Shown here: in pieces, positions 19,705 through 34,900 of the stretch | Layout: each line of letters starts with the position of its first letter | Numbering within the stretch: position 1 is the stretch's first letter | Assembly (NCBI GenBank): GCA_016285245.1 | Contig: JAEEQH010000011.1 | Coordinates: 16,733-80,732, forward strand | Source of the DNA: Prevotella sp. | GTDB lineage: Bacteria; Bacteroidota; Bacteroidia; Bacteroidales; Bacteroidaceae | Reading direction: 5' to 3' | Length of the DNA: 64,000 bases | Translations under genes and position numbers: made by a program | The notes under the pieces: generated by a model | Told to the model about the DNA's origin: nothing | The model's input: only the letters and a program-made list of their open reading frames with translations | Database searches by the model: none

Positions 19705-22042
19705 CCAGTTTTATTCCGAAGAGGTTCACCGACTTGTCCTTCGTCAGTTCATGACTGCCGGCCTCAAGCGTTGTGGTGTGGGTGTTGCCCGAACCACTGA
19801 TCTTTGCGCCGTCAATCTTGATGCTGGCCGTCTCGGTGGAAGCGAAGTAGAGTGTCATCGTCATCTTCTGCGTCAGCGTGAACTTCACCGACGTGGCCGT
19901 CTCCATCTTCAGACAGGTCTTATACTCCGTACCATCGATGGTGGCCGATCCCTTGCTGTTCGAGCCGTTGCCAGTGACGGTGAAGAGCGCGCTGCTGGGT
20001 TTTCCGCTCTTGTCGAACGTGCAGAGGACTGTTCCCTCCACACCGGGTGTCGGCTGTTCGCCGCCCTGTTCGCCGCCCTGTTCGCCGCCTTGTTCACCAC
20101 CTTGTTCACCACCTTGTTCACCACCTTGCTCACCACCTTGTTCGCCGCTCTCAGCATTCTCGTCGCCGAAGATGCCCACGAGCGTCGTCTTGTAGTTGTC
20201 GAGCAGTCCTCCCAGCACGGGGTCGTAGGCTGAGTCGGTGTCGTCGTTGCCCACATTGTCTGTGAAGGTGTAGCTGAAGTCGCCGTGCCCAATGCGTCCG
20301 GCACCGTAGTATCCCGTGACGATGGCCGGTACGTCGGCAGCGGCATCGGGCGTGTACTGGTAGATGCGTGTGGCGTCGGTGTCGAAGTTGTTATACGTTG
20401 TGCCGCCTTCCTTCGTTACCTCAGTAGCGGGTACCTGCTCGTCGCGTGTAGCAGTCTCGTAGGCATCGTATCCTGTCGTGGCGGGAGCCTTCTGGGTGCA
20501 GTACTTGAAGTTCTTGATGGTGCGGTCAAAGTAGTTGCCGAAGGCCTTGATCATGCCGCCCTTCTCGCCGCTGAAGGTGCCGCTGCCCTGGGCGTCGGTG
20601 CCCTGTAGCGAGGAGAGGATGGGCTTCTTGGTCTTCAGGAAGTAGTTGTTCTCCACGAAGACGCTGGCGCCGCTGGTGGCTCCTACACCATACTTGGCCA
20701 CGTTGTCGAAGTAGTTGTTCCACACGTGGACGGTCATGGTGCGGACACGCGGATGACGGGAGTCTGAGTGGTCGAACCAGTTGTGGTGGTAGCTAATGTA
20801 GTTGGGGCCGCTCTCGTCTTTCATGCCAAACATATTGGTCTTGCCGGTATCCCAGTAGTGGCAGTAGCTGACGGTGACGTACTTCGAGTCGGCTTTCACG
20901 TCGATGGCACCGTCGCCCTTGGCGTGGTCGCCGCCACCGTTGGGGCCGTAGAAGACGTCCATGTGGTGAATCCAGATATTGGAGTTGTCGGTGTCGAGGC
21001 TGAGACCGTCGTCCAGACAGCGCATGATGCCCATGTTACGGAACTCCACGCTCTTGCTGTTGCGCACCAGGAATCCGAAGCTGCGGATGGTGGCATCGTC
21101 GCCGATACCCTCGAAGGTGATGTTCAGTTCGCTGTCAGCCCTACGGCCCTTCACCTGGATGCCTTCCTCCTTGCTGCCCACGGCATCAAGGTCAGCTTTC
21201 TCTACGAGACCGATGAAGCGGAAGGCGATGGGCGTCGTGTCGTAGCCCTTTTCGTAGCCTGTGATGATGGCCTGCAGACCTGTACACTTGGTGGTGCCTC
21301 CCTTGGCGTCGGTCTTAACGGTGGTGGTGATGGTCTTAGCCGTCTGCTTCGTGACGTAGAACACCTTGGCACCTGCCTTCAGCGTGCCGTCGTTGTTGTA
21401 GGCTCCAACGCCCGACTGGTAGTTGAAGTGGGCGTAGCCCGTGCGGTCGTAGCTCTTCACCTCCAGGCTGCTGACGCTGCTGCCCTTGGCGGTCTGCTCG
21501 TTGCCGTTACTGTCGACGGGAACGACCTTCAGCTCATAGGTGCCGGCCTTCAGTCCCACGACGTCGGCACGGCCGTAGCTGCCGTAGTTGCGCACCAGCT
21601 GCTCGTCAATCTTCGTGAAGTCGGTGTACTGTCCGCCCTTGACGTAGACATGATATGTCTTTGCGCCGTCCAGGGGCTGCCACTTGGCATAGACGCTCTC
21701 CAACCATCCCTTCGACTCCGTGATCTTCACGTCGCCGTTGATGATTTCGCCGGGCGTTGGATCGTCGCCAGGTGTCGGTGCTGGGTCGTCGCCGGGCTCC
21801 TCCTGCTGCTGTTTCTTCTGGAAGTGAATCTTTTGCACGTTGCTGTAGCTGTCGCTGCCTACGGTCACCCTGCCGTTGGCGTCAATGGCTATTGCGCCAA
21901 TGACGGCCGTGTTGTAGACCTTCTGGCTGTTATCGTTCAGCGTGATGATGGCCTTGTTGTAGTCATCGCCCGTCTGCTGGGCAGTTGCTGTTGTCAGCAC
22001 TGCCAGCAGTAGGGCTATCGTGAGTAGTAGTTGCTTTTTCAT
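19688..22042 (-). CDS. Secreted pectate lyase-like (PL1) with (EQGG)n linker and C-terminal accessory domain
   Basis: NIWIHHMDVFYGPNGGGDHAKGDGAIDVKADSKYVTVSYCHYWD; YISYHHNWFDHSDSRHPRVR. Confidence 0.88.
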   Translation of the reverse strand: MKKQLLLTIALLLAVLTTATAQQTGDDYNKAIITLNDNSQKVYNTAVIGAIAIDANGRVTVGSDSYSNVQKIHFQKKQQQEEPGDDPAPTPGDDPTPGEIINGDVKITESKGWLESVYAKWQPLDGAKTYHVYVKGGQYTDFTKIDEQLVRNYGSYGRADVVGLKAGTYELKVVPVDSNGNEQTAKGSSVSSLEVKSYDRTGYAHFNYQSGVGAYNNDGTLKAGAKVFYVTKQTAKTITTTVKTDAKGGTTKCTGLQAIITGYEKGYDTTPIAFRFIGLVEKADLDAVGSKEEGIQVKGRRADSELNITFEGIGDDATIRSFGFLVRNSKSVEFRNMGIMRCLDDGLSLDTDNSNIWIHHMDVFYGPNGGGDHAKGDGAIDVKADSKYVTVSYCHYWDTGKTNMFGMKDESGPNYISYHHNWFDHSDSRHPRVRTMTVHVWNNYFDNVAKYGVGATSGASVFVENNYFLKTKKPILSSLQGTDAQGSGTFSGEKGGMIKAFGNYFDRTIKNFKYCTQKAPATTGYDAYETATRDEQVPATEVTKEGGTTYNNFDTDATRIYQYTPDAAADVPAIVTGYYGAGRIGHGDFSYTFTDNVGNDDTDSAYDPVLGGLLDNYKTTLVGIFGDENAESGEQGGEQGGEQGGEQGGEQGGEQGGEQGGEQPTPGVEGTVLCTFDKSGKPSSALFTVTGNGSNSKGSATIDGTEYKTCLKMETATSVKFTLTQKMTMTLYFASTETASIKIDGAKISGSGNTHTTTLEAGSHELTKDKSVNLFGIKLVPVTE
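20054..20147. repeat. 12-bp tandem repeat encoding EQGG linker
   Basis: About 8 units of tgttc[ga]cc[ga]cc[ct]; linker ESGEQGGEQGG...EQPTPG. Confidence 0.9.
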
Positions 22043-22044
22043 TT

Positions 22045-22208
22045 TTTCAATGCTTAATTCTTAATTCTTAATTCTTAATGCTTAATGCTCAATGCTCGAA
22101 CTATCCTCGTTCCTCGTTTTTCGTTCCTCGTTTCTCGTTCCTCGTTTCTCGTTCCTCGTTCCTCGAAGAACTTCAATTTTTCAATTCTTCAATTTTTCAA
22201 TTTTTCAA
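22045..22208. repeat. Composite intergenic word-repeat array (three word families)
   Basis: (TTAATTC/TTAATGC)n, (CTCGTTC/CTCGTTT)n, (TTCAATTTTTCAATT)n fill the gap between 22042 and 22197. Confidence 0.9.
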
Positions 22209-22583
22209 CACTTTCACCACCTTCGTACCTTTCTTAATAATGTACGAACCCTTCTTCGGCGCCTTCTTCAGTTGGCGGCCGCTCATGTCGAAGTAGGCGA
22301 GGGGAGCATCCTTCGCCTCGCTCTCCAGCGCTTTCAGGGCGTCGACCACGGTGAAGACGATGGTCACCGTCTCCATGTCGACCGTCTGCGTCGTGCCGTT
22401 GGCCAGGTGTAGCACCACCTTGTCGTCGTCGAACGTCAGCTTAGTCACCGTCTCCGTCTGCTGCTGCTGTCCTACGGTCACCACGGCCTTCTTTGTCTGG
22501 GCCCCGGCAGTCAGCACCGTTGCCAGTACAACCGCTGTCATGAGCACTTTCTTCGTGTGGTCTCCCACTATCAGTTTTCTCAT
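22197..22583 (-). CDS. Small secreted protein with C-terminal sorting-like tail
   Basis: Start set at MRKLIVGDHTKKVLMTAVVLATVLTAGAQ; tail YFDMSGRQLKKAPKKGSYIIKKGTKVVKVLKN. Confidence 0.7.
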   Translation of the reverse strand: MRKLIVGDHTKKVLMTAVVLATVLTAGAQTKKAVVTVGQQQQTETVTKLTFDDDKVVLHLANGTTQTVDMETVTIVFTVVDALKALESEAKDAPLAYFDMSGRQLKKAPKKGSYIIKKGTKVVKVLKN

Positions 22584-22622
22584 TGTTCTTCTTTGTTTTA
22601 GTCTGTTAATAGCTTTTCGATG

Positions 22623-22630
22623 CAAAGGTA
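22623..22630 (-). promoter_or_regulatory. -7 element TACCTTTG upstream of 22197-22583
   Basis: caaaggta on + strand. Confidence 0.5.
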
Positions 22631-22814
22631 GTGCAAAGCAGGCAAAACGCCAAATGTCTCTTGTGAAAATATTACGCAAACGTTTTAGTCCTCTTGCCCC
22701 TTGCTCCTTGCTACTTGCCCCTTCCATTCCATGAAAATTCCACACTTTTGCATCTTTTTTCATGTAAATTGTAAAAAAACGCCCATTTCTGATACAACTT
22801 ACAGTTTTTTTACC

Positions 22815-22822
22815 TATATTTG
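22815..22822 (+). promoter_or_regulatory. -7 element TATATTTG upstream of OMP gene
   Basis: TAnnTTTG match 65 nt before ATG 22887. Confidence 0.45.
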
Positions 22823-22886
22823 CAGTCGAAAGCACGATAAATACCTATTAATTAACTCATAGTATTAACTTTAAACTAACAAGCGT

Positions 22887-23357
22887 ATGAAAAAGATTTT
22901 GATGATTGCGTGCATGATCATTGCCAGCACGGCAGCTTTCGCACAGGCAGGAAAGACCACTATCGGTATCCACGGCGACTACATGCTCGACGATCCCAAC
23001 AACTTCGGTATCGGCGCTAACATGGGCTACGAGTTCATTGACAATGTCCGTGGTGTGGCTGAGTTCAACTACCTCCTGAAGAAGGACCATGTGAGCTATT
23101 GGAACGTCGATCTGAAAGCTGAGTATCTGTTCAAGTTCGGTCAGCTCGTGGTTTATCCGCTGGTAGGTATCGACCTCACGGGCTGGAAGGTCTCTTATGA
23201 CGGTCACAGTGATGACGACTCGAAGCTGGGTTTGAATATCGGTGGCGGCGCAGAATACTGGCTGTCTAATAGCCTCGCCCTGAAGGCTGAGTACAACTAC
23301 AAGACGCAGTACGACGGCTGGAGCCTGCTGAAGTTTGGTGTGGTCATCCCGTTCTAA
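22887..23357 (+). CDS. Outer-membrane beta-barrel protein
   Basis: Signal peptide MKKILMIACMIIASTAAFAQ; alternating beta strands; terminal aromatic F. Confidence 0.75.
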   Translation: MKKILMIACMIIASTAAFAQAGKTTIGIHGDYMLDDPNNFGIGANMGYEFIDNVRGVAEFNYLLKKDHVSYWNVDLKAEYLFKFGQLVVYPLVGIDLTGWKVSYDGHSDDDSKLGLNIGGGAEYWLSNSLALKAEYNYKTQYDGWSLLKFGVVIPF

Positions 23358-23419
23358 GTCTTTAGCGCTTTCAAACTATAACAAAAGAGACATTGTCCTA
23401 ACAGACATCCTCATCAACG

Positions 23420-23482
23420 AAAATCTTCAAAAATCCGACAAGACTCATTCGTAGTCATTTCTGTCAGATTTTTGAAGATTTT
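23420..23482. terminator. Bidirectional terminator between convergent genes
   Basis: aaaatcttcaaaaatccgaca (23420-23440) pairs with tgtcagatttttgaagatttt (23462-23482), flanked by A/T runs. Confidence 0.75.
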
Positions 23483-23513
23483 TGTTTTTCTCAGTTTTCT
23501 TGCAACTTGCTCC

Positions 23514-24152
23514 TTATCCGATGAACTTCAGGATGAGGTCTACCAGTTCGTCCTCCGTCTTGCCGTCAGCCGAGATGACGAGGTCGTAGTTGCGGGTGTC
23601 GTAGCGTGAGGTCTTCGTGTACTTCGTCACGTAGTTCTCGCGCATCTTGTCCACGCGCTCAATGGTCTTGCGGGCTTCCTCCTCGCTCATGTTCTGCTTG
23701 CGTGCCACGCGCTCAATGCGGAAGGGCAGCGATGCCTGGATGAGGATGCTCAGGTGGTTGGGATGCTTCTGGAACACGTAGAAGCCCGAACGTCCGGCGA
23801 TGACGCACGACTCCTCCTCTGCGATGCCCTTGAGGATCTCCTTTTCGGCCTCAAACATCTCGTCGGTGGTCAGCAAGTCTGGCTCGTCGCCCGTTTTCGG
23901 TACATAGTAGCTGGCGTTCGTGTTAGAACCGAGGTTCATGATGCGCTTGAACTCCGACCACCATGAGTGGCTTCTGCCCTTCAGCTTCTCAATCTCCTCC
24001 ACGCTGAGGCGGTATTTCTTCTCCAGCTCCTTGATGAGCGCCTTGTCGTAGAACTCCACACCCAACTTCTCTGCCAGCTTGCGGCCTACGGTGCGACCGC
24101 CGCTGCCCAACTCACGGTTAATCGTGATGACAAACTTCTCGTTCTTTTTCAT
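23514..24152 (-). CDS. Cytidylate kinase-like family protein
   Basis: FVITINRELGSGGRTVGRKLAEKLGVEFYDKALI; VIAGRSGFYVF. Confidence 0.8.
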   Translation of the reverse strand: MKKNEKFVITINRELGSGGRTVGRKLAEKLGVEFYDKALIKELEKKYRLSVEEIEKLKGRSHSWWSEFKRIMNLGSNTNASYYVPKTGDEPDLLTTDEMFEAEKEILKGIAEEESCVIAGRSGFYVFQKHPNHLSILIQASLPFRIERVARKQNMSEEEARKTIERVDKMRENYVTKYTKTSRYDTRNYDLVISADGKTEDELVDLILKFIG

Positions 24153-24172
24153 AGTCGTATAAGTTTTGGTTA

Positions 24173-24760
24173 TTAGTTAAATTCTGGAAATACCTGGTCT
24201 ACGAGCACGCAGAACTCGCGGTAGGCGTCGGTGTCGCTCAGCGGCGCGAGACTCTTGGCCAGGTGGCGGTAGTACCACGCGTGGCGTGCAGGGTCTTTCT
24301 CGTTGAAACGCTGCCACAGACGGTCGCCCTGCTCGCGCTGGTTGCGGGCCATGGCACGCATATTCGACAGTTTGTCGCCGAGGGCTACCATCTGTGTGTC
24401 GCGACTGGCCGTCGCCAGCCTGTCGATGGTCGCCTGCTTGCGCTGCTGCCAGCTCTCCACGTGGCTCATGCCCGGCACCTCGATGTCCGTCTCAGCCTCC
24501 ACCAGTTCGGCCACGCGGGGACCGAACTCGCGGCTGATGTCCTCGATGGTGACGCCGGCGTCCTCCACCACGTCGTGCAGAAGGGCCGCTGCCATCAGTT
24601 CCTGATCGCTGGTCATGGTGCCGACGATGGTCATCGCCTCCAGCGGATGCAGGATGTAGGGTAGGGTGCTACCCTTGCGGTTGACACCCTCGTGGGCCTC
24701 GGTGGCATAGCGTATGGCACGGTCTATGAGCCGTGTGTCAATGGTCTTCTCCTTCTTCAT
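24173..24760 (-). CDS. HD-domain (RSH hydrolase-like / small alarmone hydrolase) protein
   Basis: AHEGVNRKGSTLPYILHPLEAM, AALLHDVVEDAGVT, ALGDKLSNMRAMA. Confidence 0.82.
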   Translation of the reverse strand: MKKEKTIDTRLIDRAIRYATEAHEGVNRKGSTLPYILHPLEAMTIVGTMTSDQELMAAALLHDVVEDAGVTIEDISREFGPRVAELVEAETDIEVPGMSHVESWQQRKQATIDRLATASRDTQMVALGDKLSNMRAMARNQREQGDRLWQRFNEKDPARHAWYYRHLAKSLAPLSDTDAYREFCVLVDQVFPEFN

Positions 24761-25839
24761 TTTCCTTCTTTTAGTTTCTTCTGCATAAACGGTAGCGTCT
24801 CAGCCTGCTCCCACATCATGTCGGCCAGCGTGCCGTTGGCTTCGTCCTCGCCGTTGATGGTGTCGAAGATGGTCTTCAGACCACTACGGCCGCCGTCGTG
24901 CTTCAGCACGTAGACCAGACAGAGGTACTGCAGTCCCACGCTCGACGAGAGGATGTCAAGGTCGGTGGTGGCCAGCTGCGATAGTGCCAGCTGGTAGGCA
25001 TCGTCGCTGTTCTCGTCGATGAAGTGCTGCACGTCGCCCAGCGTTTCCAGTCCGAACGATTCCAACACGGGCAGGTACGACCTCATCGAGATGGGGTATA
25101 TCTCCGCCTGGTTGACGGCGGCAATGCGCTTGTTCAGTCGCTCGAAGGGCCGCAAGTCCATGTAGTTCGTGAACGAGTCGCCCGACAGCGGCACGTCGTC
25201 CAGCTGTCCGCTCTTCACCAGCGCCTGCAGCTGACGGCGGTAGTCGGTGAGCACCGTGCGCAGGCGGCTGAACTCGTCGTCGACGAGCTCCAGCATACCT
25301 GCCAGGCGGTTGAACTGACGGATATATTCGCGGGGAATCTTCACATCACCCTTGTAGCCCGTATCGTGCTCAATGGTCGACCACACGTGCTGCAGCGCCG
25401 TACGCATCTGCAGCTCGAAGCGCTGCCCGCCCTCCTGCAGACGGCAGATGTAGTGCAGCGAGCTGTAGCCGAAGCTGTCCAGCTGGTGCAGCTTACGCTT
25501 GTCGACGCTCTCCTGCCAGTCTATCTTGAAGATGCGCTTCGCGATGGCCGCCACCTTGTCCACCTCGTCGGTATAGAACGTGATGACGCGCAGTCCCACG
25601 AGGTCGGTGATGTCGTCGATGGTCTTGTACTTCGCACCCTTCCGCTCCAGCTTCCCCGCCAGCGACTTCTCCGTCTTCACGCGGCGCTCGATGGCGGTGA
25701 CGTAGATGCCCTGCTTGCGCAGCTCCCGCCGTAGCAGGTTATACGCACTCAGCGACAGCGGCTCCAGCTTCGGCAGTATCTCCCGGTACTGTCTCATCAG
25801 AGCCTCGCCGTGGGGGTCCAGTATCACATTGTTCTCCAT
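24757..25839 (-). CDS. RelA/SpoT-domain (p)ppGpp synthetase-like protein
   Basis: IDDITDLVGLRVITFYTDEV, DSFGYSSLHYICR, RFELQMRTALQHVWSTIEHDTGYK; ATGA overlap with HD gene. Confidence 0.85.
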   Translation of the reverse strand: MENNVILDPHGEALMRQYREILPKLEPLSLSAYNLLRRELRKQGIYVTAIERRVKTEKSLAGKLERKGAKYKTIDDITDLVGLRVITFYTDEVDKVAAIAKRIFKIDWQESVDKRKLHQLDSFGYSSLHYICRLQEGGQRFELQMRTALQHVWSTIEHDTGYKGDVKIPREYIRQFNRLAGMLELVDDEFSRLRTVLTDYRRQLQALVKSGQLDDVPLSGDSFTNYMDLRPFERLNKRIAAVNQAEIYPISMRSYLPVLESFGLETLGDVQHFIDENSDDAYQLALSQLATTDLDILSSSVGLQYLCLVYVLKHDGGRSGLKTIFDTINGEDEANGTLADMMWEQAETLPFMQKKLKEGK

Positions 25840-25847
25840 AACGTTTG

Positions 25848-25855
25848 CAAAGATA
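25848..25855 (-). promoter_or_regulatory. -7 element TATCTTTG for RelA/SpoT-HD-kinase operon
   Basis: caaagata on + strand just upstream of the start. Confidence 0.5.
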
Positions 25856-26008
25856 GGAATAAAGTTTGAAAAACTACGCCTTGGAACGGTAAAAATACGA
25901 AAAAAACTTTTTTTGACGCTCTCAGGAGCCGTCTTTTTCTACTGCTACCTGTTTCGGACTGAGCTGAAGGGGGAGATCATTCATATTCTATATAGGATTA
26001 TTTATGAT

Positions 26009-26342
26009 AAAGGTTGTCAGGTTGTCAAAACGCCGATATACAAAGGCTTTGCAACCTTTTTGAGGTTGACAGAGGTTGACAAGAGGTTGCCATGATTGTC
26101 TTACAGCCCATAAAGCTGGTCTTTAGCTCCCAATTCTCTCGAGAATTCAACGCTAAAGGTGGTCTTTTCGCGCGAAAAGGTCATCCTCTCAGCCGAAAAG
26201 GTCATCTTCTCAGTCGTAAAGGTCATCTTCTCAGTCGTAAAGGTCACCCCTTTAAAGTTGTCAACCTCTTGTCAACCTCTGTCAACCTCAAAAAGGTTGC
26301 AAAGCCTTTGTATATCGGCGTTTTGACAACCTGACAACCTTT
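26009..26342. repeat. Perfect 81-bp inverted repeat (26009-26089 / 26262-26342) enclosing 172 bp with 21-bp tandem repeats
   Basis: Left arm aaaggttgtcaggttgtcaaaacgccgatatacaaaggctttgcaacctttttgaggttgacagaggttgacaagaggttg equals the reverse complement of the right arm at all 81 positions. Confidence 0.97.
26173..26248. repeat. 21-bp tandem repeat, CG[AT]AAAGGTCATC[TC]TCTCAG[TC], 3 full plus partial units
   Basis: Units start at 26173, 26194, 26215, 26236; a diverged unit starts near 26151. Confidence 0.93.
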
Positions 26343-26495
26343 TCTTTGAATTTTTCTATAATAGTGTAATGCAAACCGTTGGTTTTTCCATTATGATCAG
26401 ATGCAAACAGAAGGAAGAAATACCAAAAATAATCGCACTAAAACGTTTGCGTGAAAAAAATAGGTGAAAGGTGTTGAGAATTCGTGGAAATTGTG

Positions 26496-26503
26496 TAACT
26501 TTG
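26496..26503 (+). promoter_or_regulatory. -7 element TAACTTTG upstream of uxaC
   Basis: TAnnTTTG match 41 nt before ATG 26544. Confidence 0.5.
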
Positions 26504-26543
26504 CCGTAAATTTCAACGAATATACTTAAAAACCGAAAGACTC

Positions 26544-27950
26544 ATGAAACAATTCAATGACAAGAACTTCGTGCTGGAGACTGAGATAGCCCAGGACCTG
26601 TACCACAACCATGCGGCCAAGATGCCGATCATCGACTACCACTGTCACCTGATTCCCGAGATGGTGGCCAACGACCACCGCTTCAAGTCGATCACGGAGC
26701 TGTGGCTGGGCGGCGACCACTACAAGTGGCGCGCCATGCGTACGAACGGTGTGGACGAGAAATACTGCACGGGCAAGGACACCAGCGACTGGGAGAAGTT
26801 CGAGAAGTGGGCGGAGACGGTGCCCTACACGCTGAGGAACCCGCTGTACCACTGGACGCACCTGGAGCTGAAGACGGCCTTCGGCATCGAGAAGCTGCTG
26901 AGCCCGAAGACGGCGCGCGAGATCTTCGACGAGTGCAACGAGAAGCTGAAGCAGCCGGAGTTCTCGGCTCGCGGCCTGATGAAGCACTACAAAGTGGAGT
27001 GTGTGTGCACCACCGACGACCCCGTCGACGACCTGCACAACCACATCGAGTATGCCAAGCACAAGGCTCAGGACGATCCCTTGATGATTCCCGCGTGGCG
27101 TCCCGACAAGGCGATGAACATCGAGAAGCCGGAGTTCGCGAAGTACGTGGAGCAGCTGAGCAACGTCAGCGGCGTGAGCATCACGACGTTTGCCGACATG
27201 GTGGACGCCCTGAAGAAGCGCCACGAGTTCTTCGAGGCCCAGGGCTCGAAGCTGTCGGACCACGGCATCGAGGAGTTCTACGACGAGGAGTACACCGACT
27301 CGCAGATTGAGACCATCTTCGAGAAGGCCATGCGCGGCCAGCAGCTGTCGCAGCTGGAGATTCGCCAGTACAAGAACTGCTTCCTGACGGTGATGGCCGA
27401 GATGGACGCCGACGCCGGCTGGACGCAGCAGTTCCACTACGGTGCCATCCGCGACAACAATACGGCTATGTACAACCAGCTGGGCCCGGACACGGGCTTC
27501 GACTCGATCGGCGAGTTCAACACCGCCAAGGCCATGTCGACGTTCCTGAATAAGCTGAACATGAAGGGCAAGCTCACGCGTACCATATTATATACGCTGA
27601 ACCCCTGCGCCAACGAGGTCATCGCCACGATGCTTGGCAACTTCCAGGGCGGCGAGCCGGGCAAGATACAGTTCGGCAGCGGCTGGTGGTTCAATGACCA
27701 GATGGACGGCATGATCCGTCAGATGAACGCCCTCAGCGTGCTCGGCCTGCTGAGCCGCTTCGTGGGAATGCTGACGGACTCGCGCTCGTTCCTGAGCTAT
27801 CCGCGCCACGAGTACTTCCGCCGCATCCTCTGCAACCTGCTTGGCAACGACGTGGAGAAGGGCCTGCTGCCCGACGACCGCGAGCTGCTGGGAAAGATGG
27901 TGGAGGACATCTCGTACAACAACGCGAGACGCTATTTCAAATTTTATTGA
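26544..27950 (+). CDS. uxaC: Glucuronate isomerase
   Basis: IIDYHCHLIPEMVA, KVECVCTTDDPVDDLHNH, LTDSRSFLSYPRHEYFRRILCNLLG. Confidence 0.95.
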   Translation: MKQFNDKNFVLETEIAQDLYHNHAAKMPIIDYHCHLIPEMVANDHRFKSITELWLGGDHYKWRAMRTNGVDEKYCTGKDTSDWEKFEKWAETVPYTLRNPLYHWTHLELKTAFGIEKLLSPKTAREIFDECNEKLKQPEFSARGLMKHYKVECVCTTDDPVDDLHNHIEYAKHKAQDDPLMIPAWRPDKAMNIEKPEFAKYVEQLSNVSGVSITTFADMVDALKKRHEFFEAQGSKLSDHGIEEFYDEEYTDSQIETIFEKAMRGQQLSQLEIRQYKNCFLTVMAEMDADAGWTQQFHYGAIRDNNTAMYNQLGPDTGFDSIGEFNTAKAMSTFLNKLNMKGKLTRTILYTLNPCANEVIATMLGNFQGGEPGKIQFGSGWWFNDQMDGMIRQMNALSVLGLLSRFVGMLTDSRSFLSYPRHEYFRRILCNLLGNDVEKGLLPDDRELLGKMVEDISYNNARRYFKFY

Positions 27951-27959
27951 TAAAAAATT

Positions 27960-27991
27960 CGGCTATCCTGCACGGGGTAGCCGTTTTTTTT
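27960..27991 (+). terminator. Rho-independent terminator of uxaC
   Basis: cggctatcc tgcacg gggtagccg followed by T8. Confidence 0.8.
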
Positions 27992-27992
27992 G

Positions 27993-28000
27993 TACCTTTG
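27993..28000 (+). promoter_or_regulatory. -7 element TACCTTTG upstream of wza-like gene
   Basis: TAnnTTTG directly after the uxaC terminator. Confidence 0.5.
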
Positions 28001-28034
28001 CAGCCGGAAAGTAAAAAAACGCAACGTTGAAGAG

Positions 28035-28832
28035 ATGAAAAAACTGATTCTTCCACTGATGGTAACCGTCGCTGTGATGCTGCTCAGCAGCTGTGGCAGC
28101 ACGAAGGACGTGGCCTACTTCCAGAATGCCACGCAGGTAGACCTCTCGGCATCGCAGGTGCTGTTCGACGCACGCATCATGCCGAAGGACGAGCTGAGCA
28201 TCACCGTGTCGACCACCGACCCCGAGGCCGCTACCCCGTTCAACATGACGGTGCCCACCACCTACACGCAGAACACCCGTTCGACCTACTCTCAGGCCAT
28301 GCTGCAGAGCTATCTGGTGGACAACCAGGGCAACATCGAGTTCCCCATCGTGGGCACCCTGCACCTGGGCGGCATGACGAAGTCGGAGGCCGAGCAGCTC
28401 ATCAAGACGAAGATACAGCCCTACATGAACGCCAACGAGACCCCGATCGTCACCGTCCGAATGTCGAGCTACAAGGTGTCGGTGCTGGGCGAAGTGAACC
28501 GTCCGGGCAGCTTCACCGTGTCGAAGGAGAAGGTGAGCATCCTCGAGGCCCTGGCGCTGGCCGGCGACCTGACCATCTACGGTGTTCGTAACAACGTGCA
28601 GCTGATACGTGAGGACGCCTCCGGACAGAAAGCCATCTATATGCTGAACCTGAACGACGCGAACATCATCAACTCGCCGTACTACTACCTTCAGCAGAAC
28701 GACATCGTCTACGTGACGCCGAACAAGGTGAAGGCTCAGAACTCCAGCGTGGGCAGCATGACGACGCTATGGTTCTCGGCCACGTCGATTCTCATTTCGT
28801 TGACTTCGCTGTTGTATAACATTTTGAAATAA
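28035..28832 (+). CDS. Polysaccharide export lipoprotein (Wza/BexD-like)
   Basis: Lipobox LLSSCGS; VSVLGEVNRPGSFTVSKEKVSILEALALAGDL. Confidence 0.9.
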   Translation: MKKLILPLMVTVAVMLLSSCGSTKDVAYFQNATQVDLSASQVLFDARIMPKDELSITVSTTDPEAATPFNMTVPTTYTQNTRSTYSQAMLQSYLVDNQGNIEFPIVGTLHLGGMTKSEAEQLIKTKIQPYMNANETPIVTVRMSSYKVSVLGEVNRPGSFTVSKEKVSILEALALAGDLTIYGVRNNVQLIREDASGQKAIYMLNLNDANIINSPYYYLQQNDIVYVTPNKVKAQNSSVGSMTTLWFSATSILISLTSLLYNILK

Positions 28833-28837
28833 TCCAA

Positions 28838-28872
28838 AAGAGGTTGAGAGTCGTTCTCAATCTCTTTTTTTT
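28838..28872 (+). terminator. Rho-independent terminator after wza-like gene
   Basis: aagaggttgaga gtcgt tctcaatctctt followed by T-run. Confidence 0.8.
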
Positions 28873-28912
28873 GAAAACAAGACAAACATACCATCAAGAA
28901 AGGAAAAGAACT

Positions 28913-30757
28913 ATGTGTGGCATAGTAGGATACATCGGAAAGAAAGACGCCTTCCCCATACTCATCAAGGGACTGCGGCGCCTGGAGTACCGCGGCTACG
29001 ACTCCGCCGGCGTGGCACTCATCAACGAGGGCGGCGCCCTGAGCGTGCTGAAGACGAAGGGCAAGGTGGACAACCTCGTGGACTACTGCGAGGACAAGGA
29101 CAAGAGCGGACACATCGGCATAGCCCACACGCGCTGGGCCACCCACGGCGAGCCGTCGTCAAGGAACGCCCATCCGCACTATTCCGAGTCGCACAACCTC
29201 GCCATCATCCATAACGGCATCATCGAGAACTACGCCGACCTGAAGCAGAAGCTGATGGAGAAGGGCGTCACCTTCCAGTCGGACACCGACACCGAGGTGG
29301 TGGTGCAGCTCGTGGAGTATATCATGAACAAGAAGCAGGTGGACCTGCTGACGGCCGTCCAGGTGGCGCTGTTCCAGGTCATCGGCGCCTATGCCATCGC
29401 CATCATTGACAAGCGCGACCCTCAGCAGATTATCGCCGCCCGCAAGCAGAGCCCGTTGGTGGTGGGCATCGGCGAGGGCGAGTTCTTCCTCGGCTCCGAC
29501 GCCAGCCCCATCATCGAGTATACCGACAAGGTGGTCTACCTGGAGGACGGCAACATCGCCGTCATCCGTCTGGACAGCGGCCTGAAGGTGGTCGACATCC
29601 TCGGCGAGGAACAGGCGCTGGCGGTGAAGACCGTCGACATCGACCTGGGACAGATAGAGAAGGGCGGCTATCCGCACTTCATGCTCAAGGAAATCTTCGA
29701 ACAGCCCGACTGCCTGACCAACTGTATGCGCGGCCGTGTGAACGTCGAGGGCGACCACATCACCCTGTCGGCATTCATCGACTACCGTCGTCAGCTGCTC
29801 TCGGCCAAGCGCGTGCTGATCGTGGCCTGCGGCACGTCGTGGCACGCCGGACTCATCGGCAAGCAGCTCATCGAGACGTTCTGCCGCATACCCGTCGAGG
29901 TGGAGTACGCCTCGGAGTTCCGCTACCGCAACCCCGTCGTAGGCAAGGACGACATAGTCGTCGCCATCTCGCAGAGCGGTGAGACGGCCGACACGCTGGC
30001 TGCCGTCCAGCTGGCCAAAGAGCGCGGCGCCTTCATCTACGGCGTCTGCAACGCCATCGGCTCGAGCATACCCCGTGCCACCGATACCGGCACGTACATC
30101 CACGTGGGACCGGAGATCGGCGTGGCGTCGACGAAAGCCTTTACCGGACAGGTGACGGTGCTGACGATGATGGCGCTGGCCATGGGCGAGGCCCGTGGCA
30201 CCATCAGCCGCGAAGACTACCTGCGCGTGGTGAAGGGCCTGGCCGAGGTTCCCGTGAAGATACGCGAGGTGCTGCAGATGAACGACCGCATCAAGGACCT
30301 GGCGCGCACCTTCACCTATGCCCATAACTTCCTGTACCTGGGCCGCGGCTACTCGTACCCCGTGGCCATGGAGGGTGCCCTGAAACTGAAGGAGATCAGC
30401 TACATCCACGCCGAGGGTTACCCCGCTGCCGAGATGAAGCACGGTCCTATAGCCTTGATAGACAGCGACATGCCCGTCGTCGTCATCGCCACCCACAACG
30501 CGATGTACGAGAAGGTGCTGTCGAACATCCAGGAGATCAAGGCCCGCAAGGGTAGGGTGATAGCCCTCGTCTCGAAGGGCGACGACACCATTGCCAACAT
30601 CGCCGACGAGGTGATTGAGCTGCCCGACGTCGAAGAGTGCCTGGAGCCTCTCGTCGCCACCATCCCCCTGCAGCTGCTGGCCTACCATGTGGCCGTCTGC
30701 AAGGGCAAGGATGTCGATCAACCAAGAAACTTAGCTAAATCAGTGACTGTAGAATAA
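28913..30757 (+). CDS. glmS: Glutamine-fructose-6-phosphate aminotransferase (isomerizing)
   Basis: MCGIVGYIGKKDAFPILIKGLRRLEYRGYDSAG; C-terminal NLAKSVTVE. Confidence 0.97.
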   Translation: MCGIVGYIGKKDAFPILIKGLRRLEYRGYDSAGVALINEGGALSVLKTKGKVDNLVDYCEDKDKSGHIGIAHTRWATHGEPSSRNAHPHYSESHNLAIIHNGIIENYADLKQKLMEKGVTFQSDTDTEVVVQLVEYIMNKKQVDLLTAVQVALFQVIGAYAIAIIDKRDPQQIIAARKQSPLVVGIGEGEFFLGSDASPIIEYTDKVVYLEDGNIAVIRLDSGLKVVDILGEEQALAVKTVDIDLGQIEKGGYPHFMLKEIFEQPDCLTNCMRGRVNVEGDHITLSAFIDYRRQLLSAKRVLIVACGTSWHAGLIGKQLIETFCRIPVEVEYASEFRYRNPVVGKDDIVVAISQSGETADTLAAVQLAKERGAFIYGVCNAIGSSIPRATDTGTYIHVGPEIGVASTKAFTGQVTVLTMMALAMGEARGTISREDYLRVVKGLAEVPVKIREVLQMNDRIKDLARTFTYAHNFLYLGRGYSYPVAMEGALKLKEISYIHAEGYPAAEMKHGPIALIDSDMPVVVIATHNAMYEKVLSNIQEIKARKGRVIALVSKGDDTIANIADEVIELPDVEECLEPLVATIPLQLLAYHVAVCKGKDVDQPRNLAKSVTVE

Positions 30758-31873
30758 ATGAAAGATGTGACACTGGTCCTGTCTGACGGGACGCAATTCA
30801 AAGGAAAGAGCTTCGGCTACGAGCAGAACGTGGCCGGAGAGGTGGTGTTCAACACGGCCATGATGGGCTACCCGGAGTCGCTCACCGACCCCTCGTATGC
30901 CGGACAGATCATGGTGCTGACGTTCCCCCTGGTGGGAAACTACGGCGTGCCGCCGTTCACCTTCGGCGGTAAGAAGGCCGAGGTGAGCGGTATCGGTACT
31001 GTTCTGCCCGACTTCATGGAGAGCGACCGCATCTATGCCACGGCGCTCATTGTCAGCGACTACTCCGAGCAGTACTCCCACTGGAACGCCGTCGAGAGCC
31101 TCGGCGACTGGCTGAAGCGTGAGCAGGTGCCCGGCGTGACCGGCATCGACACCCGCCAGCTGACGAAGGTGCTGCGCGAGCATGGTGTGATGATGGGACG
31201 ATTGGTGTTTGAGGAGAAGGTTATTGCGACAGAGTCGCAACAAACGTTAGAGGAGGACTACGGCGCCATCAACTGGGTGGAGCGCGTCAGCTGCAAGGAT
31301 GTCATCCGCTACAACGAGGGTGCCGGCAAGAAGGTGGTGCTCGTCGACTGTGGCGTGAAGGCCAACATCATCCGCTGTCTCGTACAGCGCGACGTCGAGG
31401 TGATTCGCGTGCCCTGGAACTACGACTATACGGGCATGGCCTTCGACGGGCTGTTCCTGGCCAACGGTCCCGGCGACCCCGACAAGTGTGTGGACGCCGT
31501 GGAGATACTGAAGAAGCAGATGTCCATGAGCCGCAAGCCCATCTGTGGCATCTGCATGGGAAACCAGCTGCTGGCGAAGGCCGGCGGTGCCACCATCTAC
31601 AAGCTGAAGTACGGTCACCGCTCACACAACCAGCCTGTGCGCGAGGTGGGCACGAACCGCTGCTACGTGACCTCGCAGAACCACGGCTATGCCGTCGACG
31701 CCGCCACGCTGGGCAAGGACTGGCGCGAGCTCTTCGTCAACATGAACGACGGTTCGAACGAGGGTATCCGTCACCAGACGAACCCCTGGTTCTCGAGTCA
31801 GTTCCACCCCGAGGCCTGCTCGGGTCCCGTCGACACGGAGTTTATGTTCGACCGTTTCATTGAAGCGCTGTAG
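30758..31873 (+). CDS. carA: Carbamoyl phosphate synthase small subunit
   Basis: GICMGNQLLAKAGGATIYKLKYGHRSHNQPV; SSQFHPEACSGPVDTEFMFD. Confidence 0.96.
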   Translation: MKDVTLVLSDGTQFKGKSFGYEQNVAGEVVFNTAMMGYPESLTDPSYAGQIMVLTFPLVGNYGVPPFTFGGKKAEVSGIGTVLPDFMESDRIYATALIVSDYSEQYSHWNAVESLGDWLKREQVPGVTGIDTRQLTKVLREHGVMMGRLVFEEKVIATESQQTLEEDYGAINWVERVSCKDVIRYNEGAGKKVVLVDCGVKANIIRCLVQRDVEVIRVPWNYDYTGMAFDGLFLANGPGDPDKCVDAVEILKKQMSMSRKPICGICMGNQLLAKAGGATIYKLKYGHRSHNQPVREVGTNRCYVTSQNHGYAVDAATLGKDWRELFVNMNDGSNEGIRHQTNPWFSSQFHPEACSGPVDTEFMFDRFIEAL

Positions 31874-31914
31874 AGATAGATAAGAGATAATAGATAAGAG
31901 ATAATAGATAAGGG
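31872..31914. repeat. Word-repeat array (AGAGATAATAGATA)n between carA and carB
   Basis: agagatagataagagataatagataagagataatagataaggg. Confidence 0.85.
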
Positions 31915-34900
31915 ATGAGAGACCAAAATATCAAGAAGGTACTGCTGCTGGGTAGCGGCGCATTGAAAATCGGCGAGGCCGGTGAGTTCGACTATAGTGG
32001 AAGCCAGGCGCTGAAAGCCTTGCGCGAGGAGGGCATCAAGACGGTGCTCATCAACCCCAACATTGCCACGGTGCAGACGTCGGAGGGTGTTGCCGACGAG
32101 ATATACTTCCTGCCCGTACAACCCTATTTCGTGGAGAAGGTCATTGCCAAGGAACGTCCCGACGGCATCCTGCTCTCCTTCGGTGGACAGACGGCGCTGA
32201 ACTGCGGCGTGGAGCTCTACCAGAGCGGCGTGCTCGAGAAGTACAATGTCAAGGTGCTGGGCACGCCCGTACAGGCCATCATCGACACCGAGGACCGCGA
32301 GCTGTTCGTCAAGAAGTTGGACGAGATCAGCGTGAAGACCATCAAGAGCCATGCCTGCGAGACGATGGCCGAAGCCCGCGAGGCTGCCGCCGAGCTGGGC
32401 TATCCCGTCATTGTGCGTGCTGCCTATGCGCTGGGCGGCCTGGGCTCGGGCTTCTGCGACAACGAGGATGAGCTGCAGGTGCTCTGCGAGAAAGCCTTCG
32501 CCTTCTCGCCGCAGGTGCTGGTGGAGAAGTCGCTGAAAGGCTGGAAGGAGATAGAGTACGAGGTGGTGCGCGACCGCTATGACAACTGCATCACCGTCTG
32601 TAACATGGAGAACTTCGACCCCCTGGGCATCCATACCGGCGAGTCGATCGTCATCGCACCGAGTCAGACGCTCACCAATTCGGAGTACCACAAGCTGCGC
32701 GCGCTGGCCATCAAGATTATCCGCCACATCGGCATCGTCGGCGAGTGTAACGTGCAGTACGCCTTCGACCCGGAGTCCGAGGACTACCGCGTCATCGAGG
32801 TGAACGCCCGTCTGAGCCGCTCGTCGGCACTCGCCTCGAAGGCGACGGGCTATCCCCTGGCCTTCGTCGCTGCGAAGCTGGGCATGGGCTACGGACTCTT
32901 TGAACTGAAGAACTCGGTCACGAAGACGACGAGCGCCTTCTTCGAGCCGGCACTCGACTACGTGGTCTGCAAGATTCCGCGCTGGGACCTCTCGAAGTTC
33001 CACGGCGTGGACAAGGAGCTGGGCTCGAGCATGAAGAGCGTCGGCGAGGTGATGGCCATCGGCCGTACCTTCGAGGAGGCGCTGCAGAAAGGCCTGCGCA
33101 TGATCGGTCAGGGTATGCACGGCTTTGTGGAGAACAAGGAGCTGAAGATTGCCGACATCGACGCCGCCCTGCGCGAGCCGACGGACAAGCGCGTCTTCGT
33201 CATCTCGAAGGCCATGCACCTGCCGGAGTATACCATCGACAAGATCCATGAGCTGACGAAGATTGACCGCTGGTTCCTGGAGAAGCTGAAGCACATCATC
33301 GACATCGACGAACGTCTGAAGAAGCAGAATATCAATACGCTGGAGGCGTCGCTACTCCGCGAGGCGAAGGTCTACGGATTCACCGACTTCCAGATAGCCC
33401 GCGCCATCGGTCTCGAGGGCGAGATACCGACGATGCACAAGGCCATGCTGCTGGTGCGTAACCGCCGTAAGCAGCTCGGCATCCTGCCCGTGGTGAAACA
33501 GATTGACACCCTGGCAGCCGAGTATCCCGCACAGACCAACTACCTCTACGTCACCTACCAGGGAACAGCCAGCATCGACACCCCTGCAGCCAACATCGAC
33601 GTCGAATATAAGCACGACGGCCGCAGCATCATTGTGCTTGGCTCAGGTGCCTACCGTATCGGCTCGAGTGTGGAGTTCGACTGGTGCGGCGTCCAGGCGC
33701 TGAACACCATCCGCAAGGAGGGCTGGCGCTCGGTGATGATCAACTACAACCCCGAGACGGTATCGACGGATTACGATATGTGCGACCGCCTGTACTTCGA
33801 CGAGCTGACCTTCGAGCGTGTCATGGACATCATCGACATGGAACAGCCGCATGGCGTCATCGTCTCGACAGGTGGACAGATACCCAACAATCTGGCCATG
33901 TACCTCGACGAGGAGCATGTGCCCATCCTCGGCACACAGGCCATCGACATCGACGGCGCCGAGGACCGTGCGAAGTTCTCGCAGATGCTCAACGAGCTGG
34001 GTGTGAACCAGCCGGAGTGGTCGGCGCTGACATCGATGGCGGATATCGACAAGTTCGTCGAGCGGGTAGGCTTCCCCGTACTGGTACGCCCCAGCTATGT
34101 GCTCTCAGGAGCGGCGATGAACGTCTGCTCGAACCGCGACGAGCTGGAACGCTTCCTGAAACTGGCGGCGAACGTCAGCGAGGACCATCCCGTCGTCGTC
34201 TCGAAGTTCATCGAGCACGCCAAGGAGATTGAGATGGACGCCGTGGCCAAGGACGGTGAGATCCTGGCCTACGCCATCTCCGAGCATATCGAGTTTGCCG
34301 GTGTACACTCCGGCGACGCCACCATCCAGTTCCCGCCGCAGAAGCTGTATGTGGAGACGGTGCGCCGCATCAAGCGCATCTCACGACAGATAGCCAAGGC
34401 CCTGCACATCAACGGACCGTTCAATATCCAGTACATGGCGCGCGACAACGACATCCTCGTCATTGAGTGTAACCTCAGGGCCTCGCGCTCGTTCCCCTTC
34501 GTGTCGAAGGTGCTGAAGCTGAACCTCATCGACTTGGCGACACGCGTCATGCTCGGACTGCCTGTTGAAAAACCGTCGAAGAACCTCTTCGACCTCGACT
34601 ATGTGGGTATCAAGGCCTCGCAGTTCTCGTTCAACCGCCTGCAGAAAGCTGACCCCGTGCTGGGTGTCGACATGGCATCGACGGGCGAGGTGGGATGTAT
34701 CGGCGACAATACCGACACCGCCCTGCTCAAGGCCATGCTCAGCGTGGGACACCGCATACCGAAGAAGACGGTGCTGCTCTCGACGGGTGGTGCCAAGCAG
34801 AAGGCCGAGATGCTCGACGCCGCCAGGATGCTCGTGGAGCACGGCTATGAGCTCTACGCCACGGGTGGCACGTCGAAGTACCTGACGGACAACGGCATCG

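Follow-up and report, generated by a model that had tools for sequence, protein, structure and literature searches.

Inverted-repeat elements and primase-helicases

Miniature inverted-repeat transposable elements (MITEs) are mobilized by transposases supplied in trans. Replication initiators of the PriRep1 type, for their part, act at origins built of short repeats. The BrickBuilt MITE of Porphyromonas gingivalis has ends of ~12 bp that match IS5-family transposons (PMC4596501), while PINSR, a repeat of Prevotella intermedia and P. nigrescens, is reported to be without terminal inverted repeats (PMC4755523). In the accessible parts of PMC5862659 and PMC8211822, PrimPol/VirE(VapE)-helicase proteins of the BT4734-like family are predicted to replicate mobile elements, and those parts mention neither inverted repeats flanking such a gene nor gene-less derivatives. 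Primase-helicases of the VapE/BT4734 type are common in Bacteroidota, and their biology is obscure.

The element described here lies in a 64-kb stretch of Prevotella DNA, referred to as the window, and is regarded as a MITE-like derivative of an apparently undescribed element family in ruminant-gut Prevotella. The favored reading, given a probability of roughly 0.75, is that this structure of 334 bp is a non-autonomous derivative, devoid of genes, of elements of ~2.3–2.6 kb, and that its arms act as recognition sites for a primase-helicase.

Structure of the inverted repeat

A sequence-only reading of the window had described a perfect 81-bp inverted repeat around a 172-bp loop between divergent genes. 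This description holds: the arms at 26009-26089 and 26262-26342 pair at 81 of 81 positions, and the flanking genes start at 25839 on the minus strand (RelA_SpoT-domain protein) and at 26544 on the plus strand (UxaC). Over 84 positions the pairing is 83/84 with one mismatch, and the next position outward of 26009/26342 is unpaired. A repeat search stretches the arms to 25991-26092 and 26259-26360 at 91% identity (102 nt), reaching the outer ends of the element. The fold of the strand has an energy of -206.7 kcal/mol, versus -84.2 +/- 5.0 in 100 dinucleotide shuffles (z = -24.6), and the inverted repeat is thus far beyond chance. The arms are composed of repeated words of ~8–11 bp and a small hairpin, and the loop contains a 21-bp tandem repeat, both of which had been missed earlier (Table 1). 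As in MITEs, the element is short and without a functional gene; an 80-aa open reading frame through the loop and right arm has no Pfam match. The recent origin that had been read from the identical arms is possible and not needed, as arm pairs of relatives span 73 to 99% identity.

Table 1. Parts of the element and its neighbors, by position in the window.
Feature	Position	Strand	Remark
Left outer end of element, CTATATAGGATTATTTATGAT	25985..26008	+	Degenerate counterpart of right outer end
Left arm	26009..26092	+	Covariance-model score 89.8 bits
Left-arm words AGGTTGTC x2	26011-26026		
Left-arm core hairpin AAAACGCCGATATACAAAGGCTTTG	26027-26051		
Left-arm inverted word CAACCT	26052-26057		
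Left-arm words GAGGTTGACA and variants x3	26062-26092		
172-bp loop separating the arms	26090..26261	+	
AATTCTCTCGAGAATT quasi-palindrome, marker of the full-size element's left-inner region	26132..26147	+	Single copy in window
Five 21-bp units, AAAGGTCATCTTCTCAGTCGT type	26155..26259	+	One among many arrays dispersed in own genome
Right arm, left-arm layout inverted	26259..26342	-	91.6 bits
Right outer end, ACACTATTATAGAAAAATTCAAAGA on - strand	26343..26366	-	
Neighbor outside element: RelA_SpoT-domain protein	24757..25839	-	PF04607
Neighbor outside element: uxaC, glucuronate isomerase	26544..27950	+	PF02614

Such a stable fold is what the long-hairpin RNA proposed earlier, or a bidirectional terminator acting on both divergent operons, would display. 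Any inverted repeat of this kind yields the same fold, however; only sub-threshold chance matches and no family were obtained from Rfam, and a terminator would be of little use at this position, with both genes starting away from it. A role of this type is very improbable.

Upstream of uxaC, a AACGTTTACGT-like site is conserved in many relatives (L106-L134), and the window has AAACGTTTGCGT at about 26441-26452. It is possibly the site of a regulator.

The full-size element family

Matches to the arm or loop of the window element were found in 15 of 150 genomes of the genus. The arm search across the same genome and its relatives, which the sequence-only reading had recommended, returned a single pair in the own genome and recurrences in relatives. 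In two of the latter (G138 and G111), a pair of inversely oriented arms encloses a single gene of ~690 aa, with PF08800 (BT4734-like), PF05272 (VapE-like), and PF19263 domains and no others. PADLOC labels the N-terminal part of the protein PrimPol, and PHROGs matches it to helicase/primase families; no transposase, integrase, or nuclease domain was recognized in the element's single gene. A tyrosine integrase gene adjoins the right arm of the G111 element (L046:3589-4614).

Queried with an alignment of G138/G111-type proteins, 85,488 species genomes yielded 80 loci. Inverted repeats of 44–111 bp, with 73–99% identity and spanning 2.31–2.59 kb, surround the gene in 40 of 43 Prevotella-type loci, a proportion (93%) that applies to this subfamily only, in a sample drawn by conserved peptides and consisting mostly of ruminant MAGs. 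Two of the three loci without repeats (L162 and L168) reach contig ends. One repeat precedes the matched coding region by ~110–430 bp, and the other lies at about -6 to +142 bp relative to the end of that region. Control windows of identical size, displaced by 2 kb, had no inverted repeats in any locus. Among 37 further loci, mostly Bacteroides homologues of ~34% identity, just nine have any repeat, and several of these are short. Some shorter VapE genes (L076, L086, L087, L097, and L073) also have flanking repeats on the same plan with other words.

The window arms match those of the primase-helicase elements at up to 88%, so that terminal inverted repeats are shared as between a MITE and its autonomous partner, although the partner here encodes the three domains named above in place of a transposase. 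It is almost certain that the window repeat descends from this family. Since no primase-helicase gene lies between its arms, and the loop is merely 172 bp, the window copy is termed a derivative and not a full member.

The source of the window is a draft genome of 60 contigs and 81% completeness, for which an artefact of metagenome assembly is conceivable. The same layout, with slightly diverged arms, is nevertheless present in several independently assembled genomes, and the window arms differ from each other within positions 82–84 and in their outer ends, which leaves an artefact with practically no weight.

Words and covariation in the arms

The arms have a common order: first an A/T-rich outer end that contains TATA, next two words and a core hairpin of the ACGCCGATGTACAAAGGGT type, then an inverted word, and finally three further words. 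The window arms fit this plan at 90–92 bits, and relatives score similarly, the model having been built with arms of the window and of several surveyed genomes, whose own scores are thus not independent. In one genome (G107; L047-L050 and L084) the arm core is inverted relative to the others, with CCCTTTGTACATCGGGC versus GCCGATGTACAAAGGG.

The words themselves vary among elements (GGTTG, GGGTG, GACTG, and others) and change jointly, both within an arm and between partner arms. For the pairing of word with inverted word, 34 arms gave 32 doubly changed cells versus 15.5 +/- 3.1 in shuffles, a signal that collapses when the partner is slid by one column. At one position, for example, the pair types are GC (12), UA (12), and CG (6). 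The first and the second word are each able to pair with the inverted word.

Identity averages 88.7% between partner arms and 64.3% between arms of different elements, and the nearest arm is the own partner in 45 of 78 cases. Since partners are far more alike than non-partners, some process keeps them so; this could be copying or template switching inside the palindrome.

Gene-less copies in relatives

Scans with the covariance model recovered gene-less copies elsewhere in the genus. G050 has three short pairs (457, 440, and 415 bp) plus two full-length pairs, and the arms of its gene-less twins are alike at 83, 80, and 79 of 84 positions. G138 has one short gene-less pair of 367 bp. One-armed copies are numerous in two further genomes, with about 38 arms in G033 and 47 in G107. 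The same scan found no arms in seven other genomes, six of which are 99% complete. The arm of the resident full element is the best or equal-best match for 21 of 24 gene-less arms, with several ties involving another species. One copy (L049) resembles an internal deletion that retains 3' gene sequence.

Twenty copies in G033 have near-identical arms in unrelated flanks, and with respect to the arm that was retained, the loop occurs in both directions. The dispersed copies of this genome have a common outer end like TATACTAGGATTTTTTCAAA and diverge beyond it, and in one of the one-armed copies a decayed partner arm is still visible.

These orientations bear on the earlier proposal of an invertible DNA switch, in which 26090-26261 would flip between the divergent genes. 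A segment of 172 bp framed by perfect inverted repeats and placed between divergent genes would suit such a switch, as would an inner sequence found in both orientations in G033. However, both orientations are explained by loss of either arm of a paired element, the same arms elsewhere lie 2.4 kb apart around a gene, nothing points to a switched promoter, and no recombinase was recognized among the listed open reading frames at 20000-32000, five of which were run against Pfam. A switch is accordingly extremely improbable.

Origin of the loop

The loop carries a marker of the full-size elements. AATTCTCTCGAGAATT and its one-mismatch variants have 61 matches in the 10.6 kb that separate the left arm from the gene, spread over 32 of the 40 elements. 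Elsewhere in these loci (347 kb) there are none, and the window has a single one (26132-26147), within the loop. From this distribution, the loop as well as the arm of the window element derives from the primase-helicase family.

The remainder of the loop would be a local expansion of a genome-specific 21-bp minisatellite. In the own genome (2.77 Mb draft, 60 contigs, 81% complete) the whole element occurs once, and the 21-bp part of its loop has many scattered matches; a pattern covering two consecutive units was hit 263 times, versus 0 for a reversed control. The minisatellite has a near-palindromic AAAGGTSACCTTT heart and forms dozens of dispersed arrays (e.g., L008-L027). Arrays lie just upstream of VapE genes on contigs C8 and C56 (L070 and L071), and one runs in frame inside a VapE-like gene on C7 (L072:2751-4130), where it encodes KGDLFSA-type repeats.

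The arm occurs in this genome as one pair plus one weak arm, the latter on contig C46 with a 21-bp array directly after it. Within the 81% of the genome that is represented, no full element was detected whose words match, and the one VapE locus with such flanking repeats carries other words. The window arm's best matches among arms of the family are at 88%.

Further large palindromes lie between genes at several loci (L010, L011, L014, L019, L022, and L023). Their arms are built by repetition of other words (TTATCCCGC, CACTTCCCG, and CACCCGGCG), have TATATA/CGCG ends, and are alike within a locus and different between loci.

Evidence for mobility and its limits

The suggestion of a non-autonomous mobile element is well supported, in that arm and loop belong to a family that is dispersed in relatives and has moved between species. 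Three pairs of near-identical full elements are found in different MAGs with unrelated left and right flanks: L144/L170 (98.6% over 2.4 kb), L138/L140 (96.4% over 2.9 kb), and L167/L171 (95.1% over 2.9 kb). Such copies indicate that the family moves, and its mobility is regarded as highly probable.

What exactly moves is complicated by a gene for an HU protein, which tblastn places immediately beyond the right arm at 32 of the 40 loci. In the near-identical pairs, homology takes in the HU gene and ends near its stop codon. In L137, a locus with no HU gene, homology to L140 is confined to the stretch from arm to arm. Since HU lies outside the right repeat and yet travels along, the moving unit does not simply end at the repeats, and the position of HU is the main difficulty for regarding them as transposon termini. 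The lack of an obvious target-site duplication, noted before, was confirmed by eye for the window and for ten gene-less or HU-less copies. The RelA/SpoT–uxaC neighborhood, through which an orthologous empty site for the window was sought, did not turn up in any of the 29 relatives with the best matches. For three gene-less copies of G050, joined flanks were compared with 99 genomes, and no junction was spanned among the matches listed.

Alternatively, the repeats could be sites at which the primase-helicase locus is replicated or controlled, instead of transposon-like ends. The dispersed copies would then be domesticated intergenic palindromes, comparable to REP/BIME, that serve as terminators, mRNA ends, or protein-binding sites and were spread by gene conversion or rare copying. 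The outlying HU gene and the missing target duplication agree with this, as do one-armed copies in which one arm is in excellent condition while the loop and the other arm decay. However, gene-less copies hold the element's own inner sequence in unrelated flanks, i.e., they spread as units, and paired short copies are intact. This explanation is considered unlikely, albeit the strongest of the alternatives.

The element behaves like a MITE, and its short size, paired ends, and dispersal would all fit a conventional one, mobilized by an ordinary transposase that an unseen insertion sequence, similar at its ends, would supply in trans, with the primase-helicase as a passenger. Yet the arm pairs inspected enclose a primase-helicase gene or nothing, with no arm-bounded transposase among them, and again there is no target duplication. 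Because two features usual in MITEs, a target duplication and a partner with a transposase, were looked for and not found, the element is not filed as a MITE, and a conventional origin is judged distinctly unlikely.

Proposed mechanism

Under the favored reading of a gene-less derivative, a full element would consist of an inverted repeat pair of ~80–110 bp around one PrimPol-VapE-type gene, often with an HU-like gene outside the right repeat. The arms, with iteron-like words around a hairpin, are candidate sites of recognition and opening. The primase-helicase may open and copy the element, as island and plasmid initiators do at their origins, and may also serve, in trans, gene-less copies whose words match. 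The window copy would be a passive one, settled between two divergent genes, with its loop enlarged by the local minisatellite.

An AF2 model of the primase-helicase has a mean pLDDT of 77 and a pTM of 0.44. Its closest solved fold by Foldseek is PriRep1 bound to DNA (7pds, E 3.6e-12), followed by viral primase-helicases, and a sequence search for solved structures returned 7pds alone. Arm similarity and protein similarity are moderately correlated (rho 0.46); a search by correlation for the word-reading region of the protein gave a flat profile in which no region stands out. That the primase-helicase itself reads the arms is given even odds. It is rather doubtful that the family moves without any recombinase. 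Equally tentative is the broader proposal of elements that need just a primase-helicase and word-coded inverted ends, and no transposase or recombinase, to copy themselves and spread gene-less derivatives in trans, each lineage-specific set of words being read by its own protein.

Comparison with known systems

If the favored reading is true, inverted word-coded repeats and gene-less derivatives provide VapE/BT4734-type primase-helicases with a defined DNA substrate, and whether a primase-helicase can mobilize DNA becomes directly testable. The family may also account for a class of Prevotella intergenic repeats. While the primase-helicase family is known, the searchable open literature, which included few subscription papers, yielded no account of its repeats and gene-less derivatives, of inverted repeats around VapE/BT4734 genes, or of primase-helicase transposons.

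The enclosed gene belongs to the same protein families as the PrimPol/VirE(VapE)-helicases of mobile elements, as far as these are described in the accessible parts of PMC5862659 and PMC8211822. SaPI/PICI initiators such as PriRep1 (7pds) have the solved fold closest to that of the element's protein. Unlike in SaPI/PICI, no island was recognized around the element, and two inverted copies of a repeat array flank the gene itself. PINSR (188 bp, PMC4755523) is likewise a high-copy, intergenic Prevotella repeat, of unknown source; compared by description only, it differs in the reported absence of terminal inverted repeats. BrickBuilt (PMC4596501) is similar in being intergenic, in having inverted ends with a minisatellite of ~21–23 bp inside, and in its dispersal in a Bacteroidales genome. 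Its IS5-type end of ~12 bp, GAGACCTTTGCA, is not that of the window element, whose outer ends are CTATATAGG... and ...CTATAATAG. Unlike those of BrickBuilt, the ends of the window element extend over ~90 bp, are structured in words, and are common to a primase-helicase element.
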